Positions 2,266 through 30,497 of a DNA stretch of 31,195 nt are shown here, in pieces. The notes beneath the pieces were generated by a model. That model did no database searches, was not told where the DNA came from, and saw only the letters and a list, made by a program, of their open reading frames with translations. The position numbers were made by a program, and so were the translations under genes. Within the stretch, counting starts at the first letter, position 1, and every line of letters starts with the position of its first letter. Source of the DNA: a virus. The stretch lies in IMG/VR virus record IMGVR_UViG_3300037493_000370, positions 1 through 31,195 of that record. One strand, given 5' to 3'.

Positions 2266-2473
2266 AGTTGCTGAAGAAGCAATCTTAGATAATGGAGAAG
2301 ATGATTTGTCAGCGGATAAATTAAAGAATGCTGCTGCTACAAAAAAATTAGCTATATTTGATGCTTTTGAAATATTAAGCAGAATACAAGAAGAAGAAAG
2401 AATATTGCTGGAAGATAGTAAAGAAGTTGAAACGAAGGTTTTTAAAGGATTTGCAGAAGGGAGATCTAAATAA
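2198..2473 (+). CDS. putative small terminase subunit
   Basis: This 91-aa, largely helical and acidic protein lies directly upstream of terL, the usual position of the small (DNA-recognition) terminase subunit. Residues 40-65 read A-D-K-L-K-N-A-A-A-T-K-K-L-A-I-F-D-A-F-E-I-L, a helix rich in Ala and Lys followed by an acidic coiled-coil end. No helix-turn-helix is obvious. The start at 2198 puts 68 bases inside the previous gene; no other Met, Val or Leu start codon occurs in frame over the conserved-looking N-terminal helix, so this start is favoured. Its TAA (2471-2473) overlaps the terL ATG. The assignment rests on position, size and helical character; another small packaging or head protein is possible. 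Confidence 0.55.
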   Translation: MNIKETKQNIIHAGHKAVLELIKVAEEAILDNGEDDLSADKLKNAAATKKLAIFDAFEILSRIQEEERILLEDSKEVETKVFKGFAEGRSK

Positions 2474-4695: not shown

Positions 4696-7101
4696 ATGAA
4701 TATATACACAAATACAAATAGTGCATTTCCTAGTCAGGTAGTACCCGATTCGGTGAAAGCATCTGAAGAATACGGACTACAAGTATCACGTGCTATTGAA
4801 CAAGAATGGTTTGACCAAGGGAGAACCACACAAAACAGATATTTAACTAATTGGAATAACTTTCATCAATTAAGATTATACGCAAGAGGAGAACAATCTG
4901 TACAAAAATATAAAGATGAATTAGCTACAAACGGAGATGTTTCTTATTTAAATTTAGATTGGAAACCAGTTCCGGTAATATCTAAGTTTGTTGATATTGT
5001 GGTTAATGGTATGTCACAAAAAGGATACGACATTAGAGCATATGCGCAAGACCCAGAATCAATAAAACAAAAAACAAATTACGCTCAAGCAATTTTAAGA
5101 GACATGTATTCGCAGGATCTTATTGCTAAAGCAAATGCCCTGACGGGTGCCAACTTTGCAAGTTCATCATTAGGTAAAGAAGAATTACCGGAAACTAAAG
5201 AAGAGCTTGAATTACATATGCAACTTACTTATAAGCAATCTGTTGAAATTGCAGAGGAAGAAGCAATCAATAATGTACTTGCCCAAAATAAATGGGATTT
5301 AGTTAGAAGAAGACTTAACTATGATTTAACAGTATTAGGTATTGCTTGTGTTAAAACAAACTTTAATGTAAGCGAGGGTATTAAAACAGAATACGTAGAT
5401 CCAGCTTATTTAGTTTATTCTTATACAGAAGACCCAAACTTTGAAGACGTATATTACGTTGGAGAAGTAAAAGCGGTGACTATACCAGAATTAAAAATGC
5501 AATTCCCTCACATATCAGAAGAGGAATTATATAAGATACAACAAATGCCCGGTAATAGACAATATATAACGGGTTGGGGTAACTACGATGAAAATACTGT
5601 TCAGGTTTTATATTTTGAATATAAGACTTACATGAATCAAGTATACAAAATAAAATACAATGAAAATGGAATGGAGAAAGTTATCGAAAAGACTGATGAC
5701 TTTAATCCTCCACAAAATGATAAATTTGATCGTGTATCAAGAACAATAGAAGTATTATATACAGGAGCAAAAATCCTTGGAACTAATACTATGTTAGAAT
5801 GGAAACTTTCGGAGAACATGTCCCGCCCATATTCTAATATGACAAAGGTTGAAATGAATTATGTTATTACAGCACCTAGAATGTATAAAGGTAGAATTGA
5901 TTCTATCGTAAATAGAATTACTGGGTTTGCCGATATGATTCAATTGACTCACTTAAAATTACAACAAGTGATGTCAAAAATGATACCGGATGGAGTATTC
6001 ATAGATGTTGATGGACTAGCCGAAGTTGACTTAGGTAATGGAACTAACTACAATCCAGCAGAAGCATTAAATATGTATTTCCAGACGGGTAGTATTGTTG
6101 GTAGATCCATGAGTCAAGACGGTGGACTTAATCAAGGCAAAGTACCTATTCAAGAATTAACAAGTTCATCGGGTCAGGCTAAGATTGCTTCATTAATACA
6201 AACATATCAATATTACTTACAATTAATACGTGATGTGACTGGGCTTAACGAGGCTCGTGATGGAAGTATGCCAGAACAAGATACATTAGTTGGGTTACAA
6301 AAAATGGCTGCTAATGCGTCTAATACCGCTACTAAACATATATTACAAGCAAGTTTATTCTTAACATTAAGAGCTTGTGAAAATATATCTCTTAGAATTG
6401 CGGATGTTTTAGATTTCCCGTTATTAGCAAAAACATTGGAGGAAAGTATTACACTTTATAATGTTGAGACCTTAAAGGAAATTAAATACTTAAATCTTTA
6501 CGACTTTGGTATCTACTTGGAATTAGAACCTGATGAAGAAGAAAAAGCAATGCTTGAACAAAATATTCAAGTTGCTTTACAAAGCGGAAGTATTGATTTA
6601 GATGACGCTATAGATATTCGACAAATAAAAAATTTAAAGTTAGCAAATCAAACTTTAAAGTTTAGAAAGAAGAAAAAAGCGAAAGCTACTCAAGAAGCTC
6701 AGATGGCCAATATCCAAGCACAGGCGCAAGCAAATCAACAAACAGCAGAAAAAGCTGCATTATTTGAGGTGCAAAAGCAACAAGCATTAACGCAGGAAAC
6801 TGTAAATATTGAGCAAGCAAAATCTCAATTTGAGATTCAAAGAATGCAAATGGAAGCTGAAATTAAAAAGCAATTAATGCAAATACAGTTTCAGTTTGAT
6901 ATGCAATTAGCTCAAATTAAAGAACAAGTGATTAATAAGAATGCTCAAGAAGCTGAAGATAGAAAAGATAACAGAACAAAAATACAAGCTACTCAGCAAT
7001 CTGCATTAATTGATCAAAGAAAAAACAATACTATGCCTCAAGATTTTGAAACGTCAGATCAAGATATTATGAGCGACTTCAATAAAATGTTAGGCGAGTA
7101 A
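4696..7101 (+). CDS. portal protein
   Basis: This 801-aa protein immediately follows terL (TAG then ATG, no gap), the standard terminase-portal order. The body contains Trp/Tyr-rich mixed alpha/beta segments, and near residues 490-530 G-Q-A-K-I-A-S-L-I-Q and V-T-G-L-N-E-A-R-D-G, a pattern typical of the portal stem/crown region of podoviruses and crAss-like phages. From about 656 to 775 the protein is an extremely Gln/Ala/Lys-rich long helix, probably a coiled coil that forms a barrel extending into the capsid. The role is a dodecameric ring at one vertex for DNA entry and exit and as the neck platform. Length (~800) fits crAss-like portals better than the ~500 aa of many siphophages. The assignment is strong by context plus sequence style. 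Confidence 0.88.
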   Translation: MNIYTNTNSAFPSQVVPDSVKASEEYGLQVSRAIEQEWFDQGRTTQNRYLTNWNNFHQLRLYARGEQSVQKYKDELATNGDVSYLNLDWKPVPVISKFVDIVVNGMSQKGYDIRAYAQDPESIKQKTNYAQAILRDMYSQDLIAKANALTGANFASSSLGKEELPETKEELELHMQLTYKQSVEIAEEEAINNVLAQNKWDLVRRRLNYDLTVLGIACVKTNFNVSEGIKTEYVDPAYLVYSYTEDPNFEDVYYVGEVKAVTIPELKMQFPHISEEELYKIQQMPGNRQYITGWGNYDENTVQVLYFEYKTYMNQVYKIKYNENGMEKVIEKTDDFNPPQNDKFDRVSRTIEVLYTGAKILGTNTMLEWKLSENMSRPYSNMTKVEMNYVITAPRMYKGRIDSIVNRITGFADMIQLTHLKLQQVMSKMIPDGVFIDVDGLAEVDLGNGTNYNPAEALNMYFQTGSIVGRSMSQDGGLNQGKVPIQELTSSSGQAKIASLIQTYQYYLQLIRDVTGLNEARDGSMPEQDTLVGLQKMAANASNTATKHILQASLFLTLRACENISLRIADVLDFPLLAKTLEESITLYNVETLKEIKYLNLYDFGIYLELEPDEEEKAMLEQNIQVALQSGSIDLDDAIDIRQIKNLKLANQTLKFRKKKKAKATQEAQMANIQAQAQANQQTAEKAALFEVQKQQALTQETVNIEQAKSQFEIQRMQMEAEIKKQLMQIQFQFDMQLAQIKEQVINKNAQEAEDRKDNRTKIQATQQSALIDQRKNNTMPQDFETSDQDIMSDFNKMLGE

Positions 7102-8331: not shown

Positions 8332-9810
8332 ATGTCAAACATGGTTAACGCCCTTACGGGTACAAATTACGGGACAATTAAACCGTCTCAAAGACAGCAA
8401 GCATTAGAAACTAACTATTTAAACTTTACTAATGGTACTAATGACTTTGCTCAACAATATTTACCAGAAATCTACGAAGCTGAAGTAGAACGTTACGGTA
8501 ATAGAACTTTATCTGGATTCTTAAGAATGGTTGGTGCTGAGATGCCAATGTCTTCTGACCAGGTTATTTGGTCTGAACAAAACAGATTACACATTGCTTA
8601 TACAGGTGTTACTTGTGCTACAGCATCTACTTTAACATTCCCTGTATCTGCTACTGCTAGTGTTAGTGGATCTTATGTAAGTAATGTAATTTCTATTGGA
8701 CAAACTTTAGTAGTTATGAGTCCTTCTACAGGAAAAGAACTTAAAGTTTATGTTACAAACTCTACTACTACAGCTACGAGTTCATCTTCTGGTACAGCTA
8801 CAATTACTTGTATCCCTTATACTCAATTAGATTTGACTACTGGTGCAGGTAACGTTGTAAACTTTGCATCAGCAACAGATCTTAAAATCTTTGTTTATGG
8901 ATCTGAATTTAAGAAAGGTACTACAGACGCTTCAATTAACTCTGTTACTCCTTCTTTTACTCAATACAATAATTCTCCTATTATCATTAAAGAAAAATAT
9001 CAAATCTCTGGATCTGATACTGCTCAAATTGGATGGGTTGAAGTTGCTACTGAGGATGGAACAGGTGGTTTCTTATGGTACTTAAAAGCTGAATCTGAAA
9101 CAAGATTACGTTTTGAGGATTATTTAGAGATGGCTGTAGTTGAAGGTGAATTAGTAAATAGTTCATCAACTGGATTAACTGCATTAAACTTAAAAGGTAC
9201 TGAAGGTCTTTTTGCAGCTGTTAAAAGTAGAGGTAATATTGTTAATAACTTTACTGCTGCTTCTGGGTTAAGTGATTTTGATTCTATCTTAAAAGGATTA
9301 GATACTCAGGGAGCTATCGAAGAAAACATGTTCTTCTTGAACAGAGCTACTTCATTAGATTTTGATGATATGTTAGCTTCTTTATCTTCTGGCGCAGCTG
9401 GTGGTGTTGCTTACGGATTATTTGAAAATTCTGAGCAAATGGCTTTAAATTTAGGTTTCTCTGGTTTCAGAAGAGGATCTTACGATTTCTACAAAACTGA
9501 CTGGAAATACTTAAATGACGCTTCTACTCGTGGAGGTATGGCTAATACATCTATTGATGGTATCCTTGTTCCAGCTGGTACAAGCACAGTTTACGATCAA
9601 CAATTAGGAACTAACATCCGTCGTCCATTCTTACACGTTCGTTATAGAGCTAACCAAGCTGATGACAGACGTATGAAAAACTGGATCACTGGATCTGTTG
9701 GAGGAGCTTACACGTCTGACTTAGATGCAATGCAAGTTCACTTCTTATCAGAAAGATGTTTAGTGACTCAAGGAGCTAATAACTTCGTATTATTTACAGC
9801 TTCTGTATAA
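8332..9810 (+). CDS. major capsid protein
   Basis: This 492-aa protein follows the scaffold-like gene. Residues 44-90 include L-P-E-I-Y-E-A-E-V, R-M-V-G-A-E-M-P and D-Q-V-I-W-S-E-Q-N-R-L-H, which I recognise as the style of crAss-like and related Bacteroidota podovirus major capsid proteins (HK97 fold). Residues about 92-190 are a Ser/Thr/Ala/Val-rich beta segment and probably form a surface insertion domain. The C-terminal half has mixed helices and strands ending in F-V-L-F-T-A-S-V. Codon choice differs from its neighbours (more GCT, TCT, GGT, TTC, AAC, CGT), as expected for the most highly expressed gene. A strong hairpin lies just downstream. The protein forms the icosahedral shell. Confidence 0.9.
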   Translation: MSNMVNALTGTNYGTIKPSQRQQALETNYLNFTNGTNDFAQQYLPEIYEAEVERYGNRTLSGFLRMVGAEMPMSSDQVIWSEQNRLHIAYTGVTCATASTLTFPVSATASVSGSYVSNVISIGQTLVVMSPSTGKELKVYVTNSTTTATSSSSGTATITCIPYTQLDLTTGAGNVVNFASATDLKIFVYGSEFKKGTTDASINSVTPSFTQYNNSPIIIKEKYQISGSDTAQIGWVEVATEDGTGGFLWYLKAESETRLRFEDYLEMAVVEGELVNSSSTGLTALNLKGTEGLFAAVKSRGNIVNNFTAASGLSDFDSILKGLDTQGAIEENMFFLNRATSLDFDDMLASLSSGAAGGVAYGLFENSEQMALNLGFSGFRRGSYDFYKTDWKYLNDASTRGGMANTSIDGILVPAGTSTVYDQQLGTNIRRPFLHVRYRANQADDRRMKNWITGSVGGAYTSDLDAMQVHFLSERCLVTQGANNFVLFTASV

Positions 9811-12793: not shown

Positions 12794-15700
12794 ATGGCTG
12801 AAATAAAAAATAGTTTTTTATTATCTAAAATGAATAAAGATTTAGATGATAGACTTATACCTAATGGTGAATACCGAGATGCTCTCAACGTATCTATTGG
12901 TAAATCAGAAAATAACGATATTGGAACATTACAGAATATATTAGGCAACAGTATAGTAGGAGGTGAAAATACTATTATAGGTTTGGAATGTATAGGATAT
13001 TATATGGATAACACCAATAATAGAATATATCAATTCTTAACAAATGCTGGGGATAATGATCCAGATCCTGTGTATCATCAAATAACCGTATATGATTTTT
13101 CAACAAATGAATATACTGTATTAGTAGAAGGAGCATTTTTAAATTTTTCAAAATCCTTTCAAATTACAGGAGTCAATTTACTTGAAAATTTATTATATTG
13201 GACAGATTATAATAATCAACCTAGAAAAATAAATATACAATCTGCATTAAATGCACCGGCATATAGTGCAGCACCTTATTATACAAATGAAGACCATATA
13301 TCCGTTGCAAAATATGCGCCGGTAGAAGCAATGTCCATGTATAAAAAATTTGTTACGACCAATACAGCCGTTGTAACAACTTCACCTATCATACCAGTTG
13401 CAGACGCATCCGGTATAGTAGAAGGAATGACCTTATTAGCGGACTCGCCAACTCCTTATACAAGTAATGAATTTATTTTTGTAGAAAGTATTGTTGGAAC
13501 TAACGTGACCGTATCGGGACCTGTTACATTGCCTATTAATACAGAGTTAACATTTTTAATATCCACCATGACCAATGAGAGTGATGACCCCAATTGGCCT
13601 GGTGATCCTGCATATTTAAAACCTAGATATGTAAGGTTTAGTTACAGATTTAGATTAGACGATGGGGAATACACTTTAATGGCTCCCTTTACCCAAATAG
13701 CATTTATACCAAACCAAAAAGGTTATTTTATTAATGGAGATGAGACTGAGGCTTATACTAGTACTGTATTAAATTGGTTTGAAAATAATGTAAATAATAT
13801 ACAATTATTAGTTCCATTTCCAGATTTAACCACTAATGTAACGCAATCTTATAAAATACAAGCATTAGATATATTATATAAAGAATCTGATGCTCAAACA
13901 GTAAAGGTATTAGATACAATTTTAAGTGGGCAATTTGCTCAAAATACATTAGGTAATAGTAATATATATGCTTATGATTATCAATCAAAAAAGCCTTATA
14001 AGACATTGCCTCCAGACCAAATCACTAGAGTATATGATATAGTTCCTGTAAGAGCAAAAGCTCAAGAAACTATTAGTAATAGAATAGTATATGGTAATTT
14101 TATTAGCGGATACACAGCTCCAGCTTCACTTAATTATCAGGTATCTGTAAATCAAAAACAAGATTATTCATACAATTTTATAGAATACCCAAATCATACA
14201 GTAAAACAAAATAGAACCTATCAAGTTGGGTTTGTTTTAGCTGATAAATATGGAAGACAATCCTCTGTTATTTTATCTTCATTAGATACGAGTGCAACAG
14301 TAACAGCTAATGGAACTTACGGCGGATCCACAGTATATTCCCCGTATTATTCATATTCAGATATACCATCTATAAAAGATTGGTATGGTAATGCAATATC
14401 AGTATTGGTTAATAATCCAGTAGTCTCTTCATATAATCAAACGACTGGAGAGCCTGGTCTATATGCGGAATCAACATCAACAACTGGGTTTACATTAACC
14501 GGTACTACTACAATAACCGATACAACATATGACTTTGAAATTAGTGCTGGTACACCTCCTAATCAATATGAATATTTGAGAGGAGCTTATACAGATTACG
14601 TTAGGGTTGAGTCAATTACAGAAGTTTCTGCAGGAGTATACAATTCAGTTACTTCTGGAAGAGTAAATGATTTATATGCAAGAAATACGGATAATGATCC
14701 TGCTGATATTAAATATGTATATACTATAAATCCTTTAGGATGGTATTCATATAAAATAGTAGTTAGACAACAAGAGCAAGATTATTACAATGTATATCTA
14801 CCCGGGTTTTTGGATGGTTATCCAGCCGGTCAAACTTATGGCACGCAAGTAGTTTATGATCCTACATCAGGGAATGCAACCACGGTAAATGGTATTAATA
14901 CTACAACTTTCCCGACTACTGAATCAGGAATAGTAGCTCATACAGTTTTAATAAATGATAATATAAATAAAATACCAAGAGACTTAGTTGAAGTTGGACC
15001 TGACCAAAAGCTATATAGAAGTAGTGTGCAATTATTTGGTAGGGTAGAAAATACTATTGCTGCGGGTATTGCTGGAAATACACAATATTATCCTTCTAAA
15101 AAAGCAGATACGGCAATTGCAATTGCATCGGCATCGGAGTTAAGTTTTTTACCAGCAACGGTTGAAAATACATTAGGTTCTGCAACTTATAATTTCTATC
15201 AATTAGAGAGTGATCCATTGGTTGCTCGTATATCAACAGTTGATCATATTGGAGTTATAGGTGTACAAAACGTAAGTTCTGGTGGGCCAACCCCTACATT
15301 TTCTTCGGATCCAAATAACATGCTACCTTTTTTAAGCATTTATGAAACAAAACCAGACTATTCTTTATTAGATATATTTTGGGAAACCTCAACAAGTGGA
15401 TTGATATCTGATTTAAATACTGATGTACTTACTGGATCTGATGGTGCAAATGGTATAAGCGAAATAAATTGGAGTACATTTACAGAAGATTTAGATCCTA
15501 ATGATCCTACTGATAAATTTATAACAAATTATTTTTACCCTGTATCAAATACAGGTAACCCGGTAGACTCTACTAGTCCATCAATATCCGTTTTTAATGC
15601 GTCAAATCCTAGTAATCCAATAACAGGAGTTTTTGCATTAGAGAGTACATATGTACCCGGGCTTAATCCATATTGGAAATATAGAATATATGTGCAGCCT

Positions 15701-16990
15701 AATCAGTTTCAAGTATTTAGAAACGACGTAAATTTAACTAATTATACCTTTGTATTTTCTTTTATACAAGCCGGGCAAACCGCAACAACTTCATACAATC
15801 TAAATGCTAAATTAATAAACATTGCTCCAACTATAACAGATAGTGCGTTAAACCCAATATCTGGTCCAATCAATTTATATTTAACAAATCCTATAACAAC
15901 CGGAACAGCTATATATAGTTTATGGGGTAAAAATGGATCTAATCCAGGAGCGGGAGGGTTCCAATTTACAACTGACCTTAAATGGAGAATAAATAATACG
16001 GGTTCGACGGCAGGTTGGCAAAACTATTTTAATATAGTCACAACAGAGCCATTGAAACTTGGCGGTATATTTCAAACCGCTCCTTTAAATCCATTGCAAA
16101 CAGTAACATTAAATGTTGAATTACAAGACGCAATGAGTTCGTCTGGTGTTCCAGCAAATGGATCAGGGGTGTATGGATCTTTAGCCGATAATATAACTAT
16201 AAATATTCAATTAGCTACAACGCCTACGATTTGTGGAAGAACTTGGACAAGTCGTAATTATGATAGTACAACTTATAATGATGTTAATAGAACTCCAATA
16301 CCTCAAATAACTACCGCAACTGCTTGGGCTAATGCCACAACCGGTGCGTGGTGTTGGCCAAATTTTGACCCTAATTTAGGCGCAATATATGGTAAATTAT
16401 ATAATGGATATGCTATAAAAGGTATTTGGAATTCATCAAATCCAGGTGATAGAAAACAATTTGCACCAACCGGATGGAGAATACCATTTTATTTAGAAAG
16501 CTGTGTATTAAACTGTACTAACGGTACTCACATGAAATCACTTGTGCCAGCGCCAGGATCAGCAAATGGTTGGGAGGCTAATATTCACACAGGAGACAAC
16601 AGCACCGGGTTTTCGGCTTTACCAGCAGGATATATGGATCAAACCGGTACATGGATACAAAGTGGGTCTAATGGAAAAATTGCAATATTCCATATGGATT
16701 CACCAACAGGGCCAACTCCAGTTCAGGAGTCTTTTATGGTTCTTTATGGAAATCTTGATGCGGTTCAATTTGACTCTGAAAGTCAATTAAAATGGGGTCT
16801 TTCGGTAAGATTTATTGATAATTCTTCTGTTACTAGAACAGCTACAAGAACCTCGCCGGGAATTTGTACGCTTCAATATAACGATATGAATCATGGAAAT
16901 CCTCATTTTGACGTTATATCTCAAGGGCAAACTGAAACATTTACAGCCTGTTCTGCATGTACTATAATTAGCACCTGCACAATAACATAA
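12794..16990 (+). CDS. tail hub protein with C-terminal FISUMP (lectin-like) domain
   Basis: This is a 1398-aa beta-rich protein. The first 60 residues (D-L-D-D-R-L-I-P-N-G-E-Y-R-D-A-L-N-V, then G-T-L-Q-N-I-L-G-N) match the start of P22 gp10-like tail hub/stabilisation proteins of podoviruses. A long series of beta segments follows, probably propeller- or blade-like. Around 1008-1145 there is a cadherin/Ig-like segment (N-I-A-P-T-I-T-D, then D-L-K-W-R-I and V-T-L-N-V-E-L-Q-D). Residues about 1146-1340 carry the hallmarks of the Fibrobacter succinogenes major paralogous (FISUMP) domain: C-G-R-T-W, G-K-L-Y-N-G-Y-A (1200-1207), P-T-G-W-R-I-P (1225-1231) and S-T-G-F-S-A-L-P-A-G-Y (1270-1280). A Cys/Thr-rich tail ends it. 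Receptor or glycan binding at the tail tip is inferred. Confidence 0.78.
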   Translation: MAEIKNSFLLSKMNKDLDDRLIPNGEYRDALNVSIGKSENNDIGTLQNILGNSIVGGENTIIGLECIGYYMDNTNNRIYQFLTNAGDNDPDPVYHQITVYDFSTNEYTVLVEGAFLNFSKSFQITGVNLLENLLYWTDYNNQPRKINIQSALNAPAYSAAPYYTNEDHISVAKYAPVEAMSMYKKFVTTNTAVVTTSPIIPVADASGIVEGMTLLADSPTPYTSNEFIFVESIVGTNVTVSGPVTLPINTELTFLISTMTNESDDPNWPGDPAYLKPRYVRFSYRFRLDDGEYTLMAPFTQIAFIPNQKGYFINGDETEAYTSTVLNWFENNVNNIQLLVPFPDLTTNVTQSYKIQALDILYKESDAQTVKVLDTILSGQFAQNTLGNSNIYAYDYQSKKPYKTLPPDQITRVYDIVPVRAKAQETISNRIVYGNFISGYTAPASLNYQVSVNQKQDYSYNFIEYPNHTVKQNRTYQVGFVLADKYGRQSSVILSSLDTSATVTANGTYGGSTVYSPYYSYSDIPSIKDWYGNAISVLVNNPVVSSYNQTTGEPGLYAESTSTTGFTLTGTTTITDTTYDFEISAGTPPNQYEYLRGAYTDYVRVESITEVSAGVYNSVTSGRVNDLYARNTDNDPADIKYVYTINPLGWYSYKIVVRQQEQDYYNVYLPGFLDGYPAGQTYGTQVVYDPTSGNATTVNGINTTTFPTTESGIVAHTVLINDNINKIPRDLVEVGPDQKLYRSSVQLFGRVENTIAAGIAGNTQYYPSKKADTAIAIASASELSFLPATVENTLGSATYNFYQLESDPLVARISTVDHIGVIGVQNVSSGGPTPTFSSDPNNMLPFLSIYETKPDYSLLDIFWETSTSGLISDLNTDVLTGSDGANGISEINWSTFTEDLDPNDPTDKFITNYFYPVSNTGNPVDSTSPSISVFNASNPSNPITGVFALESTYVPGLNPYWKYRIYVQPNQFQVFRNDVNLTNYTFVFSFIQAGQTATTSYNLNAKLINIAPTITDSALNPISGPINLYLTNPITTGTAIYSLWGKNGSNPGAGGFQFTTDLKWRINNTGSTAGWQNYFNIVTTEPLKLGGIFQTAPLNPLQTVTLNVELQDAMSSSGVPANGSGVYGSLADNITINIQLATTPTICGRTWTSRNYDSTTYNDVNRTPIPQITTATAWANATTGAWCWPNFDPNLGAIYGKLYNGYAIKGIWNSSNPGDRKQFAPTGWRIPFYLESCVLNCTNGTHMKSLVPAPGSANGWEANIHTGDNSTGFSALPAGYMDQTGTWIQSGSNGKIAIFHMDSPTGPTPVQESFMVLYGNLDAVQFDSESQLKWGLSVRFIDNSSVTRTATRTSPGICTLQYNDMNHGNPHFDVISQGQTETFTACSACTIISTCTIT

Positions 16991-17019: not shown

Positions 17020-18615
17020 ATGAGTGCAACAATAGAATTAAAATATTTCAATTCTTTTTGGCTTAAAAAAATGAAGTCAATAACTGATGTAGCGCCTAGC
17101 GCTCCTGATGCTCTTCCAAATCATTTAGCTACGGCCGCCACGATAGGACAAACTTCTATAACATTTGCAAGCACACCGCCACTGCCAAATATAGGTCCTG
17201 GACAAGCAATTTATTATACTATATCGAGTAATACTTATACATCAATAATAAAAAGTTATTCAGGATTAGTTGTAGAATTAATGGAACCTATTGAAATTAA
17301 TATTTCAACAGCTGTAGATATTACCTTTGGCGAAATTATTGATTTTAAATATGTACCAAGTTCTAGTGATTATAGTTATGACAAAGAAACAGATTGGTAT
17401 ATAGAAGAAGCAAGAATTAGAGGCGGATATAATAATACAACCGTTGACTTTGGGGTTAAAGCATATTTGATAGCAGAAGTGAATGCTCAACAAAGTAGGC
17501 CAAACTCTCTTATATATTCTGGTATATTTAATTCTAGAACAGGAGTAAATAATACAAATCAGTTTTCTATTGCAGATGATATAACACGCACTGTAGACCC
17601 TATAAACGGATCAATACAAAAATTATATTCAGAGGATACAAACCTTATTATATTCCAAGAATTTAAAGTAAGCAGAGCATTGATTGATAAAGACGCGGTA
17701 TATTCTGCAGATGGGCAAGCAATGACTACATCAGGAGCGGCTGTTATAGGTCAAGTACAATCTTATGCTGGCAACTATGGTATTGGTACTAACCCTGAGA
17801 GTTTTGCTGTTTATGGATATAGAAAATATTTTGTTGATAGAAATAGAAATGTAGTTTTAAGATTATCTCAAGATGGTATAACTGAAATATCATCTTATGG
17901 AATGATAGACTTTTTTAGAGATCAACTTGGGTATATTGGTAGTACAGGTAAAATCATTGGTGGCTGGGATGTTCATAATAAACAATATGTTGTATCTTTG
18001 CAACCAAATGCTTTTACATCACCATCAGAAAGCAGAGGGCAGCAATTGCCATCATATACTTTAGCTTTTGACGAAGACTCATTAGGATGGACAAGCTTCT
18101 TTAGTTATATACCGAACTACATGGACGGATTACGCAATAATTATTATAGTCTCAAAGACGGTAATATTTGGGTGCATTATTCACCAAATGTTAATAGAGG
18201 TAATTTTTATGGAGTAACATATACATCTTATGTGACATTTGTATTAAATCCTAACCCTTCAATGGTTAAGAACTTTAATACCATAAACTACGAAGGTACT
18301 CAAGGGTGGATAATGAATAGTTTGTATACTGATACCGATACAGCTATACCAATAAATGCATCTTTTACTGCATCAAGTTTAGCGCAATTAGAGGCAAATT
18401 TGTTTACAAATAATTTTAAACAAAAAGAAAACAAATATTTTGGTAATATATTTAACAATACAGTCGCATCAGGCGGAGATGTTATATATGGACAATCAAT
18501 GTCCGGTATAAAAGGTTTATATGCAGTTTGTACTATGACATTAAATAATAATCTTTACCCAAATCAAGCGGAACTTTATGCATGTTCTTCTGAATATGTA
18601 GAATCATCATATTAA
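17020..18615 (+). CDS. beta-rich tail/muzzle-like structural protein
   Basis: This 531-aa protein begins with a short helix F-N-S-F-W-L-K-K and then a small beta domain (about 35-110: S-I-T-F-A-S, then G-Q-A-I-Y-Y-T-I-S, then V-V-E-L-M-E-P-I). From ~120 on there are W-Y-I-E-E-A-R-I-R-G-G-Y-N-N and V-D-F-G-V-K-A-Y, then Y-A-G-N-Y-G-I-G-T-N-P-E-S-F-A-V-Y-G-Y-R-K-Y-F-V-D-R-N and L-R-L-S-Q-D-G-I-T-E-I-S. I recognise this style from conserved tail proteins encoded next to gp10-like hubs in Bacteroidota podoviruses. The late W-x-x-F-F-S-Y repeats suggest propeller blades. It lies 29 bases after the hub gene and probably forms part of the same tail assembly. It may be a tail-end piece of what is a single long protein in some relatives. 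Confidence 0.7.
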   Translation: MSATIELKYFNSFWLKKMKSITDVAPSAPDALPNHLATAATIGQTSITFASTPPLPNIGPGQAIYYTISSNTYTSIIKSYSGLVVELMEPIEINISTAVDITFGEIIDFKYVPSSSDYSYDKETDWYIEEARIRGGYNNTTVDFGVKAYLIAEVNAQQSRPNSLIYSGIFNSRTGVNNTNQFSIADDITRTVDPINGSIQKLYSEDTNLIIFQEFKVSRALIDKDAVYSADGQAMTTSGAAVIGQVQSYAGNYGIGTNPESFAVYGYRKYFVDRNRNVVLRLSQDGITEISSYGMIDFFRDQLGYIGSTGKIIGGWDVHNKQYVVSLQPNAFTSPSESRGQQLPSYTLAFDEDSLGWTSFFSYIPNYMDGLRNNYYSLKDGNIWVHYSPNVNRGNFYGVTYTSYVTFVLNPNPSMVKNFNTINYEGTQGWIMNSLYTDTDTAIPINASFTASSLAQLEANLFTNNFKQKENKYFGNIFNNTVASGGDVIYGQSMSGIKGLYAVCTMTLNNNLYPNQAELYACSSEYVESSY

Positions 18616-21209: not shown

Positions 21210-24200
21210 ATGTTAGAATACGTAAATGAAAATGGAGAGTCTTACACAGAAGACGAAATAAATCAATTTGCAAAAGACAATAACACTTCTTTTGATGATA
21301 TAATAGCAAAAAATGGATTAACCCCAAAGAAACAAAAAGAAAATGTTTCGCCGGGAAAGCAAAAGACCGTTGCAAAAAAGGATGCAAATGCAACGGCACC
21401 AAATACGGCATCCAAATTGGCTCCTACTTCTTCGGATTCCAAAAAGCGTAAATCATTTTTTGATCAAGCAATAGAAACACCTTCTTTTGAAGAATCTGCT
21501 AATAAAGCAATAAAAGCTAAAAAAGAACAAGAAAAAATTGCATATGATTTAGAAAAATCTTTAAGAAGCTCTAGAGCAGATTTAACTAGTCAAATAACAG
21601 GACAAACTAATCCATCCACTCAAAGAAGTATTATGCTTGAGAAAGTGGATGCTGACAATTTAGCAAAACAAAAAGAACAAGAAAAAATAGACCTTGCTAA
21701 AGGAGAAATAAGACTAAAAGAAACAACTATAAGAAACGACAAAACTTATAGAGAAGCTAGTGAGTTATTAAAACAAGCTACTATTTTGCCTAAAGAATTT
21801 GAGGATGAATTAAACAATGAAATAAATTCTCAAAAAGAAAGAAATGGAAAAGCATATACAGAATACCAAACACCTGGAGGCGTAGGCTATATAGGTGGAG
21901 GGGCAAATACTGAAATAAAAAGAAAATTTATAGCTTTTGAAAACGAAAGAAAACAAGCTTTAAATGAATTTAAAAAAATAAAAAAAGCTCCTACGGAACA
22001 AGAAATTCTTAATAGAGCAGCACAAATATACAAACAAAATAAAACAGAAGAAAGACTATATTCACAAAAATGGGATGCTTTAGAGAATCTTGAGGGTTAC
22101 GGCGAAGAGGTTCAAAAGTTTTTTATTGATTATGATATTAATAAAAAAACCGTTGCAGATGATGATTTAGCAAAAACAAATGCGCAAAAAGTTTATACTC
22201 AAAAAGCATTAGAGCATTCTGTATCAAATATAGAGAATTTAAAAAAGAGGTTAAAACCTGCTGGGTATGAATATAAAACACAACAGGAAATTGATGAGCA
22301 AAATACTTTAATAGAGCAGATTAATCTTAATAAAAAAGAAATTGGAGACAATATTAAGTATTATGATAAATTATCAAACAATGAAGCGGTATTAGAAAAT
22401 GCATCGACATCTTTAGAAAAAGACATAGAGTTACAGAAAAAAGATTGGAATTGGTGGTCAAGAACAGGCAGAAAAATTTGGAACTCTTATGTAAATGAGT
22501 TTGGAGGAAGTGTAGCTGGTGCGTTAGCTTACGCCGATGATTTAATAATGAGCACTGTTACCGGAGGATCTTGGGATAATCGAATTGGCAAAGACGTCGC
22601 CAGAATGAAACAAGAGAATAAAGAAGAGTATGAGTCTAAAATGGCGCCTAACAGAGGCACTTTTACAAGTCCAGAAGCTTTTATGGAAAACGCGGCCGAT
22701 GCTATAATTAGCCAACTGCCTCAAATAATAACTATTGTATTGGCTCCCGAAGCTTACGCTCCTGAAATTGTAGGACTTGTATCTGGCGGTGTTACCGGAA
22801 CAGGTGCTAAGTACACTGAGATGATTGGTGAGCAAATGACTGGTATACCAGATGAAGATGGTATTATAAAAAACCCTGATTATTCAGTAACACAATTATT
22901 TTCTGTACCAGCATTATTTGGATTATACGAAGGCGGCTCTGAATATGTTGGAGGTCGAGCTATTGGTAGAATGCAAAAAATGTTTAGCAAAGCAACTAAA
23001 CCAGAATTAGAAGGTATTTTAGGTGCTGCTAAAACTACTATTACTAAAAAAGCAGAAGAATTCTCTAAAAATTTACTACAAAACTACGGAGAAGAAATTC
23101 CTGCTGAAGTATTTAATACTGTACTTGGTAATTTTACAGATAAAACATTATTAGGTAAAAAAGATAAAAATTTGCTTGAAGGCGTACCAGAAACAATATT
23201 TGATACCGCCGTAGTATCTACATTATTTGCTACTGCACCTCATATTGCTGGCGCGGTTTATAGACAATTTATACCTGCTACTTATGCAAAAAAACTTGTT
23301 GAAAATAATAATAGAATAGCAGATATATTAAAAGGAGTTGATTATGAAAAATTATCGCCTGAAGAAAAAACTATAATTGATGATAAAATAAAATCAATAA
23401 AAGACAACTCCACAACTATGATTAATGATGTAGCGGAATCAATTGGAGCAACGGATACTGCTACTTTACTAGATATAGACAACCTAAGTAGAGATATTAT
23501 TGATATAAGAAAGCAAGCTAATACTATTAATAATAGTAATAATCTTACTCAAGAACAAAAAGACCAATTGTTAGACGACATGGCTACACAGCACCTAGAC
23601 ACAACAACTAGGTATAATAGAGTATTAGATAATATTTACCGCGCAGAACAAGCAAACAAAAAAGTTGCTACTTGGTCAAATACCAGAAAATTAAAGTCTG
23701 ATATAAACTTAGGTAGAAATTATTTAGCTACTGTAATGGTGACTGGAAAAGATGTAAAATACGTTGCGGCATCAAATAAGGAACTTATAGATAAAGCACT
23801 AGTAAATCCAGTATATTCAAAAATAATTAATAACGAATATAATGCTTTTGTAACGGATACTAACGAAACTTATTCTCCAGAGCAAAAGTCATTGATTATG
23901 CGCTCTATAGCTGCTAATCAAGTAAAAGAGAACGGTATGTATGACGATAGAATTAATACGATCTACGTTAATAAGGATACTGCTCTTAGAAATAAAACAT
24001 TTACTACCGCTAGACACGAAGTATTCCATAAGGTTATAGAAAACTTTGCTGGTAATATGGGAGATATTGGTAAATCTTTATACTCATTTGTTAAAGAACA
24101 GCATGTTGGAGATACTAAATTTGATGACACCAAATTTGCAAAAAGAATGCAAAGAGAGTTTGATGATTTAGCTAAAGATATTGAAAAATTAGATTCTCAA

Positions 24201-27200
24201 AAAGAAGCAGGAAAAATAACATCTAAAGAATATAATGCTCAAGTTAAACAAAAAGAAAACATTGCTAACGAGGAAGTTTCTACAATATTAACGGAGTCTT
24301 TAATCGATGGCGATATTAAAATAGACAAATCAAATGCAGAAAACTTAAAGTTTGATAGCGATGGCAATGTAATAATTAACAATGCTAAGGATATGTTTAA
24401 CTTTATTGCCGCTTATAACGAGTCTTATAGTAAATCTAAAAGATCTGATATTGTTGAAGCCGCTGCGCAAGGTAAAGTAGCTGGAGAATTAATAAAAGAA
24501 ACCCCAACAAAATCCGTTAGCCAAGAGCCAAGAAGATCAAAATCTGAAGTTGACTTATTAAAAGAAAAACTAGAGGAACTTGAGGATAATGAAGGCGATT
24601 ATGATCCAGATGATTTTGATCAACAAGTAGATAATTTAAAAGCTAAAATCAAAAGAGCAATTGAAAAAGAAAAGACAGAAGTAAAACCTGTAGTTAAAAA
24701 AGAGGCATCAGACGAAGACGAGGTTAAAGAAATTGTTAGATCTGAAAAGGGATCTGTAGCTTCTGATAAAGTTCAAAAACTATATGAAGAAAAAGGATTA
24801 GCCGCTGCGCAAGATATTATTAATTTATTTAAACCTATTACAAAAAGAATAGTAGATAAGCGTAGAGACGCGCCAGGTTTTGATAGAGAATTACTTACTG
24901 ATGAAATTGAAACTGGATCTGGTGGTATATTAGATCTTATTAAAAGTTATGCAAGCGAAAAAGGAGTTCCTTTAGCTGCTTATATAAACAGACAATTACC
25001 TTTAAGGGCTATTGCTGCATCTAGAAGGGTATTAGAAGGAGACTTTAAGAAAGACGTTACAGAAGAAAAAGGGTTGATGGCTGAAGAAACTGTTTCTGAG
25101 GTAAAAGAAAAACCAAAATATAAAAATGCATTAGAATCAAATGTTTTTGAGCCTACAGTTTTAAAAACAATGTCTGACAAGATTGTAACCCAACTTCGTA
25201 CATTAAAATCCCGTATTGATGAACCCATATCGTTAAATCGTACAGTTACTCCGTTGATTGCAGAGATTAGGGATGCTATTGGTAAACAATTAGACATTGA
25301 TGTTAAAAAAGCAATGGGTGGCAAAAAAGACAACGAATTAGTAAATTGGTTGTTAAAAAATAAACGTTATGTACTTGAAAATATGACTACAACGTGGTTA
25401 ATGGGCGCTAATGGACAAGGTGGTATACCACAAGCAATACAAAAAAGAATAGATGGCAAATGGGTTAGTTATCCTGATTGGGTTGATCAAAAAATAGATA
25501 GGGAAGCTGTTTCAACTGATAATGCAGGTAGAACATCTGGAGCAGAATTAGTTAGAAGATTGCCTAATGTATTTAATAACGTATCTAATGAAGACTACTT
25601 AGGTCAAGTGGTTGGGTCTGACGGTAACCCTATACGCGGAAGAAAAGAATCATTAGCAAAAGCAGTTGCTGAGGAATCGGCATTTGATATAATTAATAAT
25701 GATTTACAAAATGATGGCCCAATTTACGATGCTCTAAAAACTAACCAGGAACGCCAGGGCCTTGTAGTCGCAGAAAATTTTAGTAATGAATTTGCCAGAC
25801 AAGCAGAACGAGGTAATGTTAAATATTCTAAAGAATTAAAATCAGAATTATCAAACAAATTAGGTGAAGACCTTAATGACCAAGATATGACAAATATTAT
25901 AAGAGGAATTATAAGTCAAATTATAAAACCTACTATATATAAAAGAAAAATGGCATTAGGGGATTTAGAACAAGATTGGAAAGAAAGATTGGGTAATGAT
26001 CTATATGAAAAAGTTTATAATGAATATTTAAGTCCAATTGCAGATGCATTAGACACTGTTCAAAATAGCCCATCAAATAAAAGAGGAGATGTTGCTGAAG
26101 ACAAGGTCATAGAGACTATAAAATCAATAGAAAATAAAGATTTTAAATTAATATCAACAACTTCTGCGGGGGCTGGATCTCACGCTGTTGATGTTCAATT
26201 TTCTTATAAAGGTATTCCTATTAATTTTGAAGTGAAATCAGGAAAATCAGACAGATTAACTTCTTTAAATATACATAATTATACGGCTAATAAAATAACA
26301 ACATCAAGGATTGTATCGGAAAATAATAAAAACAATATAATATCTCAAATACAAAATAATAGTAAATTCCAAAAATTTGTTAAAAAAGCTTTAGATAATG
26401 GTGCTACATTAACAGAAAATGGAAGTCTAGAGGTTGATCCGAAATTGCTTAATAAGTTAAAAATTGGGGGTTCAATATATGGTAAAACGCTAATTCCTCT
26501 TAGCATAGATATGGGCTTGATAAAGGACATATACAATAGGAAAGGAATAAATTATATTGGATTTGGCGATATTGGTATATTTAGTGTTGGGGAAAACACA
26601 TTGGGTATTGATGTGCCAAGTCTAGAGGGAAAATTATATTCAAAGGCTTTCCTTCATCCGGGCATCGTAAAAACCAATGGTAAAGTTACATTAACATTAA
26701 AAGTATATACTCAGTTAACAACTGAAGCTGGTAATCAATTATCTGAAAAATCTAAAGATTCTGTTTATAGCAAAGAATCATGGAGCAATTTATTTAAAAA
26801 TATTCCGGAAGAAAGAATATCATATTTAAAAAGTGTACCGGGTATTAAAGAAAATAATGAAACATCTAATGCTGTTTTAATTTCATTACAAAATGGTAAA
26901 AAATCAAAAGGTATTTCAGTTTTTGATTTTGATGATACTGTAGGATTAACAAAGAGTAATGTGCTATACACAATGCCCGACGGTTCAAAAGGTAAATTGA
27001 ATGGAGCTGAATTCGCTAAAGAAGGATCTAGATTATTAGACGAAGGCGCAATATTTGATTTTTCTGAATTCAGTAAAGTAGTTGAAGGTAGACCTGGTCC
27101 AATGGTTGAAAAGATGAAGAAAATGATTGGCAAATTTGGTGCAGAAAATTTCTTTATACTTACGGCAAGACCTGCTGATTCAGCGTTGCCTATTAAAGAA

Positions 27201-29630
27201 TTTTTAGATTCTATAGACATAAATATTCCGCTGGAAAATATAACTGGACTAGGTAGTAGTAGTCCACAAGCAAAAGCTGATTGGATTGTTCAAAAAGCAA
27301 ATGATGGATATAATGATTTTTATTTTGCTGATGATCATTTACCTAATGTAAACGCGGTTAAGAATGCTTTAGACGTATTAGATGTTAAGTCTAAAATTCA
27401 GCAAGCTCGAGCAAAGTTTAGTAAATCTATGAACTATGATTTTAATAGAATTCTTGAAGAGAACACGGGCACGGAAAGATTTAAGGTATTCTCTGATATT
27501 GTTGCAAGAAGAAGAGGTGCAAAGAAAAATAAATTTGATTTCTATGTTCCGCCATCAGCAGCCGACTTTGAGTTATTATTATATAACTTTATGGGGAAAG
27601 GTTCTAAAGGAGAACAGCACAAAAAATTCTTAGCTGAAGCATTCTTAATACCTTATACAAATGGTAATGATTTAATGGATGCTGCTAGACAATCTATTAA
27701 AAAGAATTATAAAGCATTACTTAATTCATTTCCTGATATTAGTAAAAAATTAGAAAGCCTAACTCCAGATGGAGACTTTACTTATGATCAAGCAATACGC
27801 GTTGCAATATGGAATGAATCTGATGTTGAAATACCTGGCATATCTAAAAGAGATATCGCTAAATTAACAAATTTAGTAAATGGAGACGCACAATTAAATG
27901 CTTTTAAAAACGGATTAATCTTAACTGGTAGACAAGGTAAAGGGTGGGTTGCACCTGAAGAGTACTGGGATGCTAATACAATAATATCTGATCTACATAA
28001 TCTTACTGAAGGAGTTGGAAGAAAAAAATTCTTAGGTGAATTCATTGCTAATGTAGAAGAAATATTTGGTACTTGGGATAATGGAAGATTAACTGGACCT
28101 AATATGAATAAGGTTGAAGCTTTATACGGTACCCCGGTTAGGGAAGCACTGGAAGACATTCTTTATAGAATGATGACTGGTAAAAATAAAAGTGCAGGTA
28201 ATGATAAAGAAACAACAAGATGGAGTAATTGGGTAAACGGATCTACTGGAACTATTATGTTCTTAAATACAAGATCTGCGGTGCTACAGTTACTTGGGTC
28301 AATCAACTTCTTGAACTTTAGAGATAACAATCCTGTTGCTGCAGCCGCTGCTTTTGCTAATCAACCGCAATATTGGAAAGACTGGGCTCGTATTTGGAAT
28401 TCAGATAAAATGAAGGAAAGACGCGGTGGATTAAAAGAGGATGTTGCCGCTGCTGAGATTGCTAATGCTGCTGCAGGTAGTAAAAATAAAGTGAATGCGG
28501 TTGTTTCTTATTTATTAAAGATTGGATATACCCCAACACAATTAGCAGATAGTTTTGCTATTGCATCAGGAGGTGCTCCATTCTATAGAAATAGAATTAA
28601 GTCTTACCTAAAAGAAGGTTTAACAGAAGCAGAGGCAGAAGCTAAAGCTTGGAATGACTTTACTAAAGTATCCGATGAAACACAACAGTCTGGAGACCCT
28701 AGAGATATATCTAAGCAACAAGCAAGCCCCGCAGGTAGGTTATTATTGACATTCCAAAATACCTCAATGCAGCAAGCTCGTATTGTTAAAAAAGCTTTTT
28801 TAGACCTTAAGAATCGTAGAGGAGATGATAAAACAAATATATCTAAAATAATTTATTATCTTACTGTTCAGAATTTATTATTTGCTGGATTACAACAAGG
28901 ATTATTTGCTGTTGCATTTAGTGATGATGATGAAGAAGATGAAGCATTAAAAGCTAAAAAGCAAAAAACAAAAACTGAAAAAGCAATTTCTGTTGTTGAT
29001 GATGTATTAGATACTATATTACGTGGAACAGGATTTGTAGGCGGTATAACGGTTACTTTAAAAAATATGATACTTAAATATCTTGAACAGGTTGAAAAGA
29101 AACAACCAGACTATGCTCAAGTTGTTTTTGAGGGAACTAATATATCTCCGCCAATTGGATCTAAGCTTAAGAAATTATACAGAGGGCTAGAGTTAACTAA
29201 ATACGATAAGGACCTTATAAAAGAAAGAGGTTGGGGAGTAATGCAAGATGGAAGAGTTCACCTTGGCCCAATGTATTCTGTTAGCGGTAAAGTTGTGGAG
29301 GCAACTACCAATTTACCAATGGATCGTTTGGTTAATAAAATTGAGAATGTATCTCAAGCTATGAATTCTCAAAACCAAGCATGGCAAAGAATTATGATTG
29401 GAATGGGATGGACACCATATAGTGTTGGAATTGAAGGTACACCTGGTGATATTAAAATAGAAGCAGAAGGTAAAGCTAGAAGAAAAGAAGAAGGTAAAAT
29501 AAAAGCTAAGGAATCTAGAGAAAGAAAAAGAGACTCAATCAAAAATTTACCTCTTGGAGAACAGTTGAAATTAAAAATGCAAGCTAAAGAAAAAAGATTA
29601 AAAAATAGATTAAAAAGAAAAATGGGTTGA
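21210..29630 (+). CDS. giant multidomain internal virion protein (protease, nuclease, phosphatase motifs)
   Basis: The single 2806-aa frame is intact. About 60-415: charged coiled-coil. About 425-660: amphipathic/hydrophobic stretches (N-W-W-S-R-T-G, then Q-I-I-T-I-V-L-A-P) that could insert in a membrane. H936-E937-V-F-H940 is a zincin HExxH with a possible third ligand near E1021/E1022. About 1236-1290 is a helical segment with G-V-P-L-A-A-Y-I-N. G1626 to K1676 holds a PD-(D/E)XK core: E1630, D1661, E1674-V-K1676. A full HAD phosphatase set follows: D1906-F-D1908-D-T1910, T1985, K2022, D2041-D2042. About 2338-2580 is hydrophobic (S-T-G-T-I-M-F-L-N-T-R-S) with an acidic run, and the last ~60 residues are strongly basic. 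Such fusions match the large polyvalent proteins described for phages. Position after two ejection-like proteins suggests it is packaged and injected. Individual activities are inferred from motifs. Confidence 0.85.
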   Translation: MLEYVNENGESYTEDEINQFAKDNNTSFDDIIAKNGLTPKKQKENVSPGKQKTVAKKDANATAPNTASKLAPTSSDSKKRKSFFDQAIETPSFEESANKAIKAKKEQEKIAYDLEKSLRSSRADLTSQITGQTNPSTQRSIMLEKVDADNLAKQKEQEKIDLAKGEIRLKETTIRNDKTYREASELLKQATILPKEFEDELNNEINSQKERNGKAYTEYQTPGGVGYIGGGANTEIKRKFIAFENERKQALNEFKKIKKAPTEQEILNRAAQIYKQNKTEERLYSQKWDALENLEGYGEEVQKFFIDYDINKKTVADDDLAKTNAQKVYTQKALEHSVSNIENLKKRLKPAGYEYKTQQEIDEQNTLIEQINLNKKEIGDNIKYYDKLSNNEAVLENASTSLEKDIELQKKDWNWWSRTGRKIWNSYVNEFGGSVAGALAYADDLIMSTVTGGSWDNRIGKDVARMKQENKEEYESKMAPNRGTFTSPEAFMENAADAIISQLPQIITIVLAPEAYAPEIVGLVSGGVTGTGAKYTEMIGEQMTGIPDEDGIIKNPDYSVTQLFSVPALFGLYEGGSEYVGGRAIGRMQKMFSKATKPELEGILGAAKTTITKKAEEFSKNLLQNYGEEIPAEVFNTVLGNFTDKTLLGKKDKNLLEGVPETIFDTAVVSTLFATAPHIAGAVYRQFIPATYAKKLVENNNRIADILKGVDYEKLSPEEKTIIDDKIKSIKDNSTTMINDVAESIGATDTATLLDIDNLSRDIIDIRKQANTINNSNNLTQEQKDQLLDDMATQHLDTTTRYNRVLDNIYRAEQANKKVATWSNTRKLKSDINLGRNYLATVMVTGKDVKYVAASNKELIDKALVNPVYSKIINNEYNAFVTDTNETYSPEQKSLIMRSIAANQVKENGMYDDRINTIYVNKDTALRNKTFTTARHEVFHKVIENFAGNMGDIGKSLYSFVKEQHVGDTKFDDTKFAKRMQREFDDLAKDIEKLDSQKEAGKITSKEYNAQVKQKENIANEEVSTILTESLIDGDIKIDKSNAENLKFDSDGNVIINNAKDMFNFIAAYNESYSKSKRSDIVEAAAQGKVAGELIKETPTKSVSQEPRRSKSEVDLLKEKLEELEDNEGDYDPDDFDQQVDNLKAKIKRAIEKEKTEVKPVVKKEASDEDEVKEIVRSEKGSVASDKVQKLYEEKGLAAAQDIINLFKPITKRIVDKRRDAPGFDRELLTDEIETGSGGILDLIKSYASEKGVPLAAYINRQLPLRAIAASRRVLEGDFKKDVTEEKGLMAEETVSEVKEKPKYKNALESNVFEPTVLKTMSDKIVTQLRTLKSRIDEPISLNRTVTPLIAEIRDAIGKQLDIDVKKAMGGKKDNELVNWLLKNKRYVLENMTTTWLMGANGQGGIPQAIQKRIDGKWVSYPDWVDQKIDREAVSTDNAGRTSGAELVRRLPNVFNNVSNEDYLGQVVGSDGNPIRGRKESLAKAVAEESAFDIINNDLQNDGPIYDALKTNQERQGLVVAENFSNEFARQAERGNVKYSKELKSELSNKLGEDLNDQDMTNIIRGIISQIIKPTIYKRKMALGDLEQDWKERLGNDLYEKVYNEYLSPIADALDTVQNSPSNKRGDVAEDKVIETIKSIENKDFKLISTTSAGAGSHAVDVQFSYKGIPINFEVKSGKSDRLTSLNIHNYTANKITTSRIVSENNKNNIISQIQNNSKFQKFVKKALDNGATLTENGSLEVDPKLLNKLKIGGSIYGKTLIPLSIDMGLIKDIYNRKGINYIGFGDIGIFSVGENTLGIDVPSLEGKLYSKAFLHPGIVKTNGKVTLTLKVYTQLTTEAGNQLSEKSKDSVYSKESWSNLFKNIPEERISYLKSVPGIKENNETSNAVLISLQNGKKSKGISVFDFDDTVGLTKSNVLYTMPDGSKGKLNGAEFAKEGSRLLDEGAIFDFSEFSKVVEGRPGPMVEKMKKMIGKFGAENFFILTARPADSALPIKEFLDSIDINIPLENITGLGSSSPQAKADWIVQKANDGYNDFYFADDHLPNVNAVKNALDVLDVKSKIQQARAKFSKSMNYDFNRILEENTGTERFKVFSDIVARRRGAKKNKFDFYVPPSAADFELLLYNFMGKGSKGEQHKKFLAEAFLIPYTNGNDLMDAARQSIKKNYKALLNSFPDISKKLESLTPDGDFTYDQAIRVAIWNESDVEIPGISKRDIAKLTNLVNGDAQLNAFKNGLILTGRQGKGWVAPEEYWDANTIISDLHNLTEGVGRKKFLGEFIANVEEIFGTWDNGRLTGPNMNKVEALYGTPVREALEDILYRMMTGKNKSAGNDKETTRWSNWVNGSTGTIMFLNTRSAVLQLLGSINFLNFRDNNPVAAAAAFANQPQYWKDWARIWNSDKMKERRGGLKEDVAAAEIANAAAGSKNKVNAVVSYLLKIGYTPTQLADSFAIASGGAPFYRNRIKSYLKEGLTEAEAEAKAWNDFTKVSDETQQSGDPRDISKQQASPAGRLLLTFQNTSMQQARIVKKAFLDLKNRRGDDKTNISKIIYYLTVQNLLFAGLQQGLFAVAFSDDDEEDEALKAKKQKTKTEKAISVVDDVLDTILRGTGFVGGITVTLKNMILKYLEQVEKKQPDYAQVVFEGTNISPPIGSKLKKLYRGLELTKYDKDLIKERGWGVMQDGRVHLGPMYSVSGKVVEATTNLPMDRLVNKIENVSQAMNSQNQAWQRIMIGMGWTPYSVGIEGTPGDIKIEAEGKARRKEEGKIKAKESRERKRDSIKNLPLGEQLKLKMQAKEKRLKNRLKRKMG

Positions 29631-29704: not shown

Positions 29705-29935
29705 TTAAATTTCTAATTTAGGGTCATCACTGACCTTTTCTTTTGCTTCAAGGTTTTCCTTGGCTTTTTCTGTTAATTTTTGAATTGCTTCATCATATCC
29801 TGGCATTAATTTAACGGCTTCTAATGTTCCCGCTGCTAATGTAGTTATATGTTGTTGCTCATTCATTATTTGCTGAAGCACTCTGATTACCGCTTCAAGC
29901 TTATTCTTCATTTCAATTAAACTTTGTTCTTTCAT
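29705..29935 (-). CDS. 76-aa coiled-coil hypothetical protein
   Basis: This last gene of the leftward operon encodes a small acidic helical protein with heptad-like spacing over residues 7-35 (I-E-M-K-N-K-L-E-A-V-I-R-V-L-Q-Q-I-M) and again near the Lys/Glu-rich end. An A-A-G-T-L-E-A-V-K-L-M-P-G-Y segment lies in the middle. The ATG overlaps the stop of the upstream oxygenase-like gene (ATGA), implying coupled translation. The stop is nine bases before the right arm of the terminator. No motif or family is recognised; an oligomeric structural or regulatory partner is possible. Confidence 0.65.
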   Translation of the reverse strand: MKEQSLIEMKNKLEAVIRVLQQIMNEQQHITTLAAGTLEAVKLMPGYDEAIQKLTEKAKENLEAKEKVSDDPKLEI

Positions 29936-30495
29936 TTATCTATTTTATAAAACATTACAAATACTTTTCTACTATTAATAAATTCATTAGGAAATTTACT
30001 GTGGAAATAATGGCAGGGATAAGATATTACTCTATTCTTTTTATGTCCTACCACAGATTTTAATATCCACTTATCAATATCATTAGCATCTTCATTTAAT
30101 AGTCTATCAAACTTTTCAGGACTTATATCTTTAAATGTTTCCCCGTATAATTTATGTTCCCAAAAAGCCGTACCATTTAAACCTTCTTCTTTACTATCTG
30201 ATATATACAATACCAAAGCTCTATCCGGTTGTTGGCCTTCTATTATTGAGTCATTATGTATACGCCAATCATTATCTTGCCCTTCCTTAGCCTCTCTAAA
30301 GAATCCCAAAATAGGAATTACTTTAGAGTGCTCTAGGATAGATACGCTATTACATACATGGTCTATAAACCATTCTTCAGGAATCTTAACCCAAAATGGT
30401 TTACCAGGAGTATCAACTTTTTGAAACTCGCTTTTATCTTCATTAAGGATATTTATTAATTCTTCTTCTAAGAAATCATCTTTTATATATATCAT
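29932..30495 (-). CDS. 2-oxoglutarate/Fe(II)-dependent oxygenase-like protein
   Basis: This 187-aa protein has the iron-binding facial triad of the 2OG-Fe(II) oxygenase superfamily in the right order: H80-x-D82 (R-I-H-N-D-S), a distal H165 (Y-F-H-S-K-F-P) and a downstream R176 that could bind 2-oxoglutarate. Strand R-A-L-V-L-Y-I-S (92-99) follows the HxD as in double-stranded beta-helix enzymes, and G-T-A-F-W-E-H is typical of prolyl-hydroxylase-like members. The substrate is unknown; phage enzymes of this group can act on proteins or nucleobases. An upstream TTG (30513) would extend it by six residues into the previous gene, but the ATG at 30495, two bases after that gene's stop, is preferred. 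It lies in the same leftward operon as the ribonucleotide reductase. Confidence 0.72.
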   Translation of the reverse strand: MIYIKDDFLEEELINILNEDKSEFQKVDTPGKPFWVKIPEEWFIDHVCNSVSILEHSKVIPILGFFREAKEGQDNDWRIHNDSIIEGQQPDRALVLYISDSKEEGLNGTAFWEHKLYGETFKDISPEKFDRLLNEDANDIDKWILKSVVGHKKNRVISYPCHYFHSKFPNEFINSRKVFVMFYKIDK

Positions 30496-30497
30496 AA

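Follow-up and report, generated by a model that had tools for sequence, protein, structure and literature searches.

A giant putative cargo protein with an internal slot that exchanges unrelated domains in a predicted muzzle-bearing podovirus

The window analysed here, a linear IMG/VR virus record of 31,195 bases, encodes a 2806-residue protein in which, judged from sequence, an internal slot exchanges at least two unrelated domain families. We consider it probable that this giant is a polyvalent protein ejected as cargo, that its nuclease cassette is polymorphic, and that it belongs to a muzzle-bearing podovirus of Flavobacteriia. On the + strand the gene order is terminase, portal, capsid-type and other virion proteins, muzzle, a GNAT-like gene, two unassigned proteins and then the giant. 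The giant is the final gene of the virion/tail block as assigned with PHROGs and Pfam, and is thus encoded with virion genes. The principal genes are as follows.

2473..4695, + strand: terminase large subunit (phrog_6681, 1.3e-167)
4696..7101, + strand: portal protein (phrog_6547, 2.9e-145)
8332..9810, + strand: virion structural protein, capsid-type by position (phrog_13704, 8.6e-97)
12794..16990, + strand: muzzle protein, N-terminal part, with Fib_succ_major domain (PF25731, 1.4e-13; PF09603, 2.4e-16)
17020..18615, + strand: muzzle protein, C-terminal part (PF25729, 4.8e-11)
21210..29630, + strand: giant polyvalent protein, 2806 aa (ATG start, intact frame; 108 distinct relatives)

The two ORFs between 12794 and 18615 share a single crassvirus-type muzzle by their Pfam matches, and we note that the two-ORF arrangement recurs in several relatives, judged by ORF length. 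A GNAT-like acetyltransferase (18631-19038) lies between the muzzle and cargo genes; its match to PF00583 (0.0033) is below the cut-off. After the giant, the opposite strand (29932-31193, -) encodes a DUF6445/phrog_1644-like protein and a ribonucleotide reductase C-terminus. The relatives of the portal are podoviruses of Flavobacterium, Cellulophaga, Maribacter and Tenacibaculum, and the structural block closes with a giant gene in the Flavobacterium, Cellulophaga and Maribacter phages and in ctfjg026. The initial annotation had called the 484-aa and 225-aa proteins upstream of the giant ejection-like, a description that gained no support here, with no homology detected to the neighbours of the Cellulophaga and elemovirus giants.

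The single intact frame at 21210-29630 was borne out, and every motif that had been placed in it is where the initial annotation put it: HEVFH at residues 936-940, D1661 followed by EVK at 1674-1676, and, for the HAD signature, DFDDT at 1906-1910, TARP from 1985, K2022 and DD at 2041-2042. Among 5000 shuffles of the giant's own sequence, HExxH arises in 0.3% and HAD motif I in 1.6%, whereas 13.5% contain a hydrophobic-D...ExK pattern, so that the nuclease motif taken alone is weak evidence. The case for the predicted enzymatic domains is carried by conservation, as alignments of the relatives retain the catalytic residues of all three signatures. These relatives were gathered from 47 loci found with the whole protein and 80 loci found with the HAD profile (the best 80 of more than 500 matches), giving 108 distinct giants.

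Scans of the whole giant against Pfam and PHROGs gave no match above the cut-off, a tblastn search of 50,697 phage records gave none, and profile searches against PDB sequences gave marginal matches only. None of the isolated phages examined carries the full architecture. A search of 84,980 bacterial and archaeal genomes returned one partial match to the giant family and nothing else, a near-absence that is consistent with a virulent life style. That single match, to part of the giant's HAD domain, lies on a contig placed in an Ilumatobacteraceae MAG (L138), which is probably a misbinned phage contig. The parts of the giant are listed below.

22653..23588, + strand: module, residues ~482-793, with hydrophobic stretches, common to virion proteins of isolated flavophages (hhalign probability 96.8-97.8)
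23685..24467, + strand: predicted zincin-type metallopeptidase region, residues 826-1086 (ligands H936, H940 and E1022; catalytic E937)
24378..25832, + strand: conserved block between protease and slot, residues 1057-1541 (blastp blocks in relatives)
25821..25832, + strand: border motif KYSK, residues 1538-1541, at the left slot edge (identity to the relative L005 stops here; motif enrichment)
25833..26891, + strand: exchange slot, residues 1542-1894, here a predicted PD-(D/E)XK nuclease with E1630, D1661, E1674 and K1676 (HhaI fold match, Z 9.6)
26892..27443, + strand: predicted HAD phosphatase domain, residues 1895-2078 (28 relatives conserve the four motifs)
27414..27425, + strand: border motif KFSK, residues 2069-2072, after the HAD domain (59 of 99 giants have a copy within a single 45-residue window there)
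27444..29627, + strand: conserved C-terminal block, residues 2079-2806 (38-96% identity across relatives; part matches Gundel gp074, probability 95.0)

Several unrelated enzymatic domains are therefore predicted in one polypeptide, with zincin, PD-(D/E)XK and HAD signatures and a predicted nuclease fold. For the protease, H936, E937, H940 and E1022 are the sole invariant columns of the region in 37 divergent relatives. E1022, absent from the earlier list of residues, is the third-ligand glutamate, and it completes a zincin-type signature of HExxH plus a third zinc ligand. The HExxH...E pattern fits the MPTase class; no Pfam model matched. The phosphatase signature proposed at 1906-2042 likewise stands, with the residues of all four motifs invariant or nearly so in 28 relatives, and there is weak Pfam support in the HAD region of relatives (HAD, 0.0018; DUF2608, 6e-5). 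In L016, L017, L018, L019, L020, L032 and L042-L045 the HAD domain is followed by a further, optional cassette of ~170-480 residues, flanked on both sides by copies of the border sequence QQA-x-x-KFS.

The domain occupying the slot in the window is supported as a predicted nuclease by motif and by fold. E1630, E1674 and K1676 are invariant across nine slot relatives, all of which have an Asp 13-15 residues ahead of the Glu by inspection of the alignment. An AlphaFold model of the slot (pLDDT 75, from an alignment of the nine sequences) gave no clear match with plain Foldseek. VIA re-alignment placed the HhaI restriction endonuclease first, with a Z score of 9.6 over 175 residues (rmsd 3.7 A, 11% identity) and the next chain at 4.0, and a weak profile match to Hjc resolvases points in the same direction. 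The proposed PD-(D/E)XK assignment is thus strengthened to an E...D...ExK signature on a predicted alpha-beta core fold. A scan of a sequence collection with the slot sequence alone found no relatives, and no partner methyltransferase for an HhaI-like domain was recognised among the window genes scanned.

The slot is most readily seen in a comparison with L005, the closest relative among the matches listed. The two giants are ~92% identical over residues 8-1541 and ~94% identical over residues 1880-2806, whereas between KYSK (1538-1541) and residue ~1880 they are unrelated. At the DNA level the flanks are 90% and 88% identical, with the similarity stopping at 25842 and resuming at 26846. Both flanks were mapped in 36 proteins, whose slots contain 308-465 residues. 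PSI-BLAST on 103 slots, a survey of best-matching loci and no census, placed 71 in a family with an EHxxP motif and 16 in the PD-(D/E)XK family of the window, with zero overlap between the families; addition of L031 brings the latter to 17 of 103. The majority of the remaining 15 connect to the EHxxP family, and L097, L103 and L122 are in neither. The domain order that had been proposed is therefore constant for the protease, the HAD domain and the C-terminus, but the nuclease is replaceable by an unrelated domain family in the same slot.

The EHxxP domain (L005:14954-15895 and relatives) is widespread and has invariant E-H-x-x-P and R residues. We do not call it a nuclease: neither Foldseek nor VIA found a PDB fold matching its AlphaFold model, which is of good confidence (pLDDT 86). 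Matches of the model to BFVD were weak, the best being a large uncultured-virus protein annotated as a UDP-N-acetylglucosamine kinase. With no recognised fold for this domain, it is not established that the slot always holds a nuclease.

Exchange has been frequent. On a FastTree backbone tree of the C-terminal block from 93 proteins, the PD type requires no fewer than 13 changes, and well-supported branches force 12 of these. Shuffled labels give a mean of 14.2 changes, about the same number as observed, and slot type is thus nearly independent of backbone ancestry. A simple objection is that all of the close relatives of the giant are metagenomic contigs, and the swap could be an artefact of their assembly. 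We reject this explanation on the number of independent switches and give it almost no weight: the changes (at least 13 over 93 contigs) come from many samples, the frames are intact, and the left borders fall at the same motif. Past the giant gene, carriers of different slot types share uninterrupted DNA of 88% identity, with the next genes on the opposite strand. Because this downstream DNA stays the same whatever the slot type, no linked immunity gene is seen.

The same data bear on two other accounts of the slot. One is that the enzymes serve the phage's own genome, with the nuclease and the HAD phosphatase trimming or repairing ends or processing the packaged genome at entry, and that the slots differ through neutral turnover of activities that are equivalent to one another. 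The constancy of the HAD domain beside any slot type fits a fixed end-processing partner, but such housekeeping explains poorly at least 13 switches of unrelated domains at near-identical backbones, and we regard this account as unlikely. The second is that the slot domains are selfish in-frame nucleases of a homing type that spread between phages. The nuclease fold predicted for the window's slot domain and the frequency of exchange are in keeping with such elements. However, an empty slot was seen in 0 of 36 mapped and 0 of 103 surveyed giants, the commonest occupant is the different, EHxxP domain, and insertions at other sites of the giant are of another type; we find this second account improbable, well behind the first.

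Domain borders in the giants are marked by a short peptide. The pattern [KR][FY]S[KRLQ] occurs in 195 copies in 99 giants, compared with 51.8 expected from shuffles, an enrichment that is descriptive, as the motif was spotted in the same sequences before counting. One cluster lies ~165 residues past the HAD start, where 59 of 99 giants have a copy in one 45-residue window, and 28 of 99 have a copy 8-45 residues ahead of the HAD domain (about 0.7 expected). Copies also cluster at the slot start and after the protease, and are nearly absent within the slot and the HAD domain. The surrounding sequence varies from border to border, the tetrapeptide alone being common. The motif could act in processing, with modules freed by cutting at the K[FY]SK borders, or as a linker that makes in-frame swaps tolerable. 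We give less weight to self-cleavage there by the embedded zincin, as L074, L125 and L133 lack HExxH and retain the motif. Also against self-cleavage, in elemoE gp18 the zincin is present and the border motif is absent.

The link to the virion comes from gene position and from residues ~482-793. This module has homologues in phi40:1 gp101 (hhalign probability 97.8), phi18:3 gp123 (97.4), Gundel gp074 (97.1) and elemoE gp18 (96.8). The GenBank entries for phi40:1 gp101 and phi18:3 gp123 carry the note 'annotation based on experimental MS/MS proteomics analysis'. In profile alignments the zincin region also matches elemoE gp18 (probability 87.6), the HAD domain and N-terminus have no match in the phi40:1, phi18:3, Gundel and elemoE proteins, and the giants of ctfjg026 and Panino have no clear homology to that of the window. 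The earlier proposal that the giant is virion cargo is well supported, as a prediction, by its place after the muzzle and tail genes and by this one module shared with the MS/MS-noted proteins; packaging of the enzymatic half is a prediction.

The two Cellulophaga proteins, phi40:1 gp101 and phi18:3 gp123, are encoded at the same gene position as the giant and share the ~300-residue module, but they are shorter, lack HExxH, and have no detected match to the HAD domain or C-terminus. This difference could be taken to mean that the giant is mainly a structural ejection protein whose enzymatic domains are decaying passengers. We think that improbable too, as each domain has few invariant columns, or none, besides its catalytic residues, a pattern that argues against decay.

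The organisation of the giant recalls several known systems. The polyvalent proteins found in phages and conjugative elements, in the sections of Iyer et al. 2017 (PMC5512222) drawn on here, combine unrelated enzymatic domains, including a zincin-like metallopeptidase, in one large protein, are encoded beside virion genes and are predicted to be injected. Hubs of their published domain network include MPTase, ArdC, ART and MuF. The window's giant has the same multi-enzyme make-up and virion-gene neighbourhood, and differs from the proteins in those sections in having no recognised Pfam domain; nor do those sections describe internal cassette exchange between near-identical carriers or a border motif. 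The MuF polymorphic toxins of temperate phages have a constant virion-linked carrier and variable effectors, several of them nucleases (Jamet et al. 2017, PMC5576092), and a constant virion-linked carrier with a variable effector is what we predict here. However, in MuF toxins the variable part is the C-terminus, a MuF domain is present and a putative immunity gene usually comes next, and virulent phages yielded none of these toxins (PMC5576092), whereas the giant's slot is internal, with the HAD domain and C-terminal block unchanged after it, there is no Pfam MuF match, and the locus shows no linked immunity gene. The crAss001 cargo proteins gp45-gp47, which are detected in virions, have their genes directly behind that of the muzzle (PMC10172136), a placement similar to that of the giant. 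The crAss001 giants are RNA-polymerase-associated, unlike the window's giant, and hhalign detected no homology between it and gp45-gp47. We note that crAss001 gp47 (L139:26120-33145) has a single HExxH (HEAFH at 2157), which is not detectably homologous to the window's protease.

In the cargo reading that we favour, the giant would be packaged in the particle and exit through the muzzle with or before the DNA, with the 482-793 module aiding passage across the envelope. Its enzymes would act inside the host before new phage proteins exist: the slot nuclease would cleave host nucleic acid or that of a rival element, and the HAD phosphatase next to it might work on phosphorylated ends or nucleotides. 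Repeated replacement of the slot could then reflect hosts or rivals evolving resistance to any single version. A further and more tentative suggestion, which we rate as possible but doubtful, is that these giants constitute a new class of virion-delivered polymorphic effectors in virulent phages, with an internal, always-filled, motif-bounded slot in which unrelated enzymes (in the window a nuclease) take each other's place beside a constant phosphatase, and with cleavage at the motif releasing the enzymes.

Most of what is known of polyvalent proteins comes from lists of domains, and the giant family adds a natural experiment, with near-identical carriers holding different cargo in one slot in a family that is abundant (more than 500 HAD-domain matches). 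The slot-swapping carriers make the driver of exchange testable, that is, which host or rival factor is responsible, and likewise whether the constant HAD domain can work with any slot enzyme. It also becomes testable whether phage cargo proteins generally use a short peptide motif to delimit their modules or to have them processed. The logic of polymorphic effectors would then extend from temperate to apparently virulent phages.
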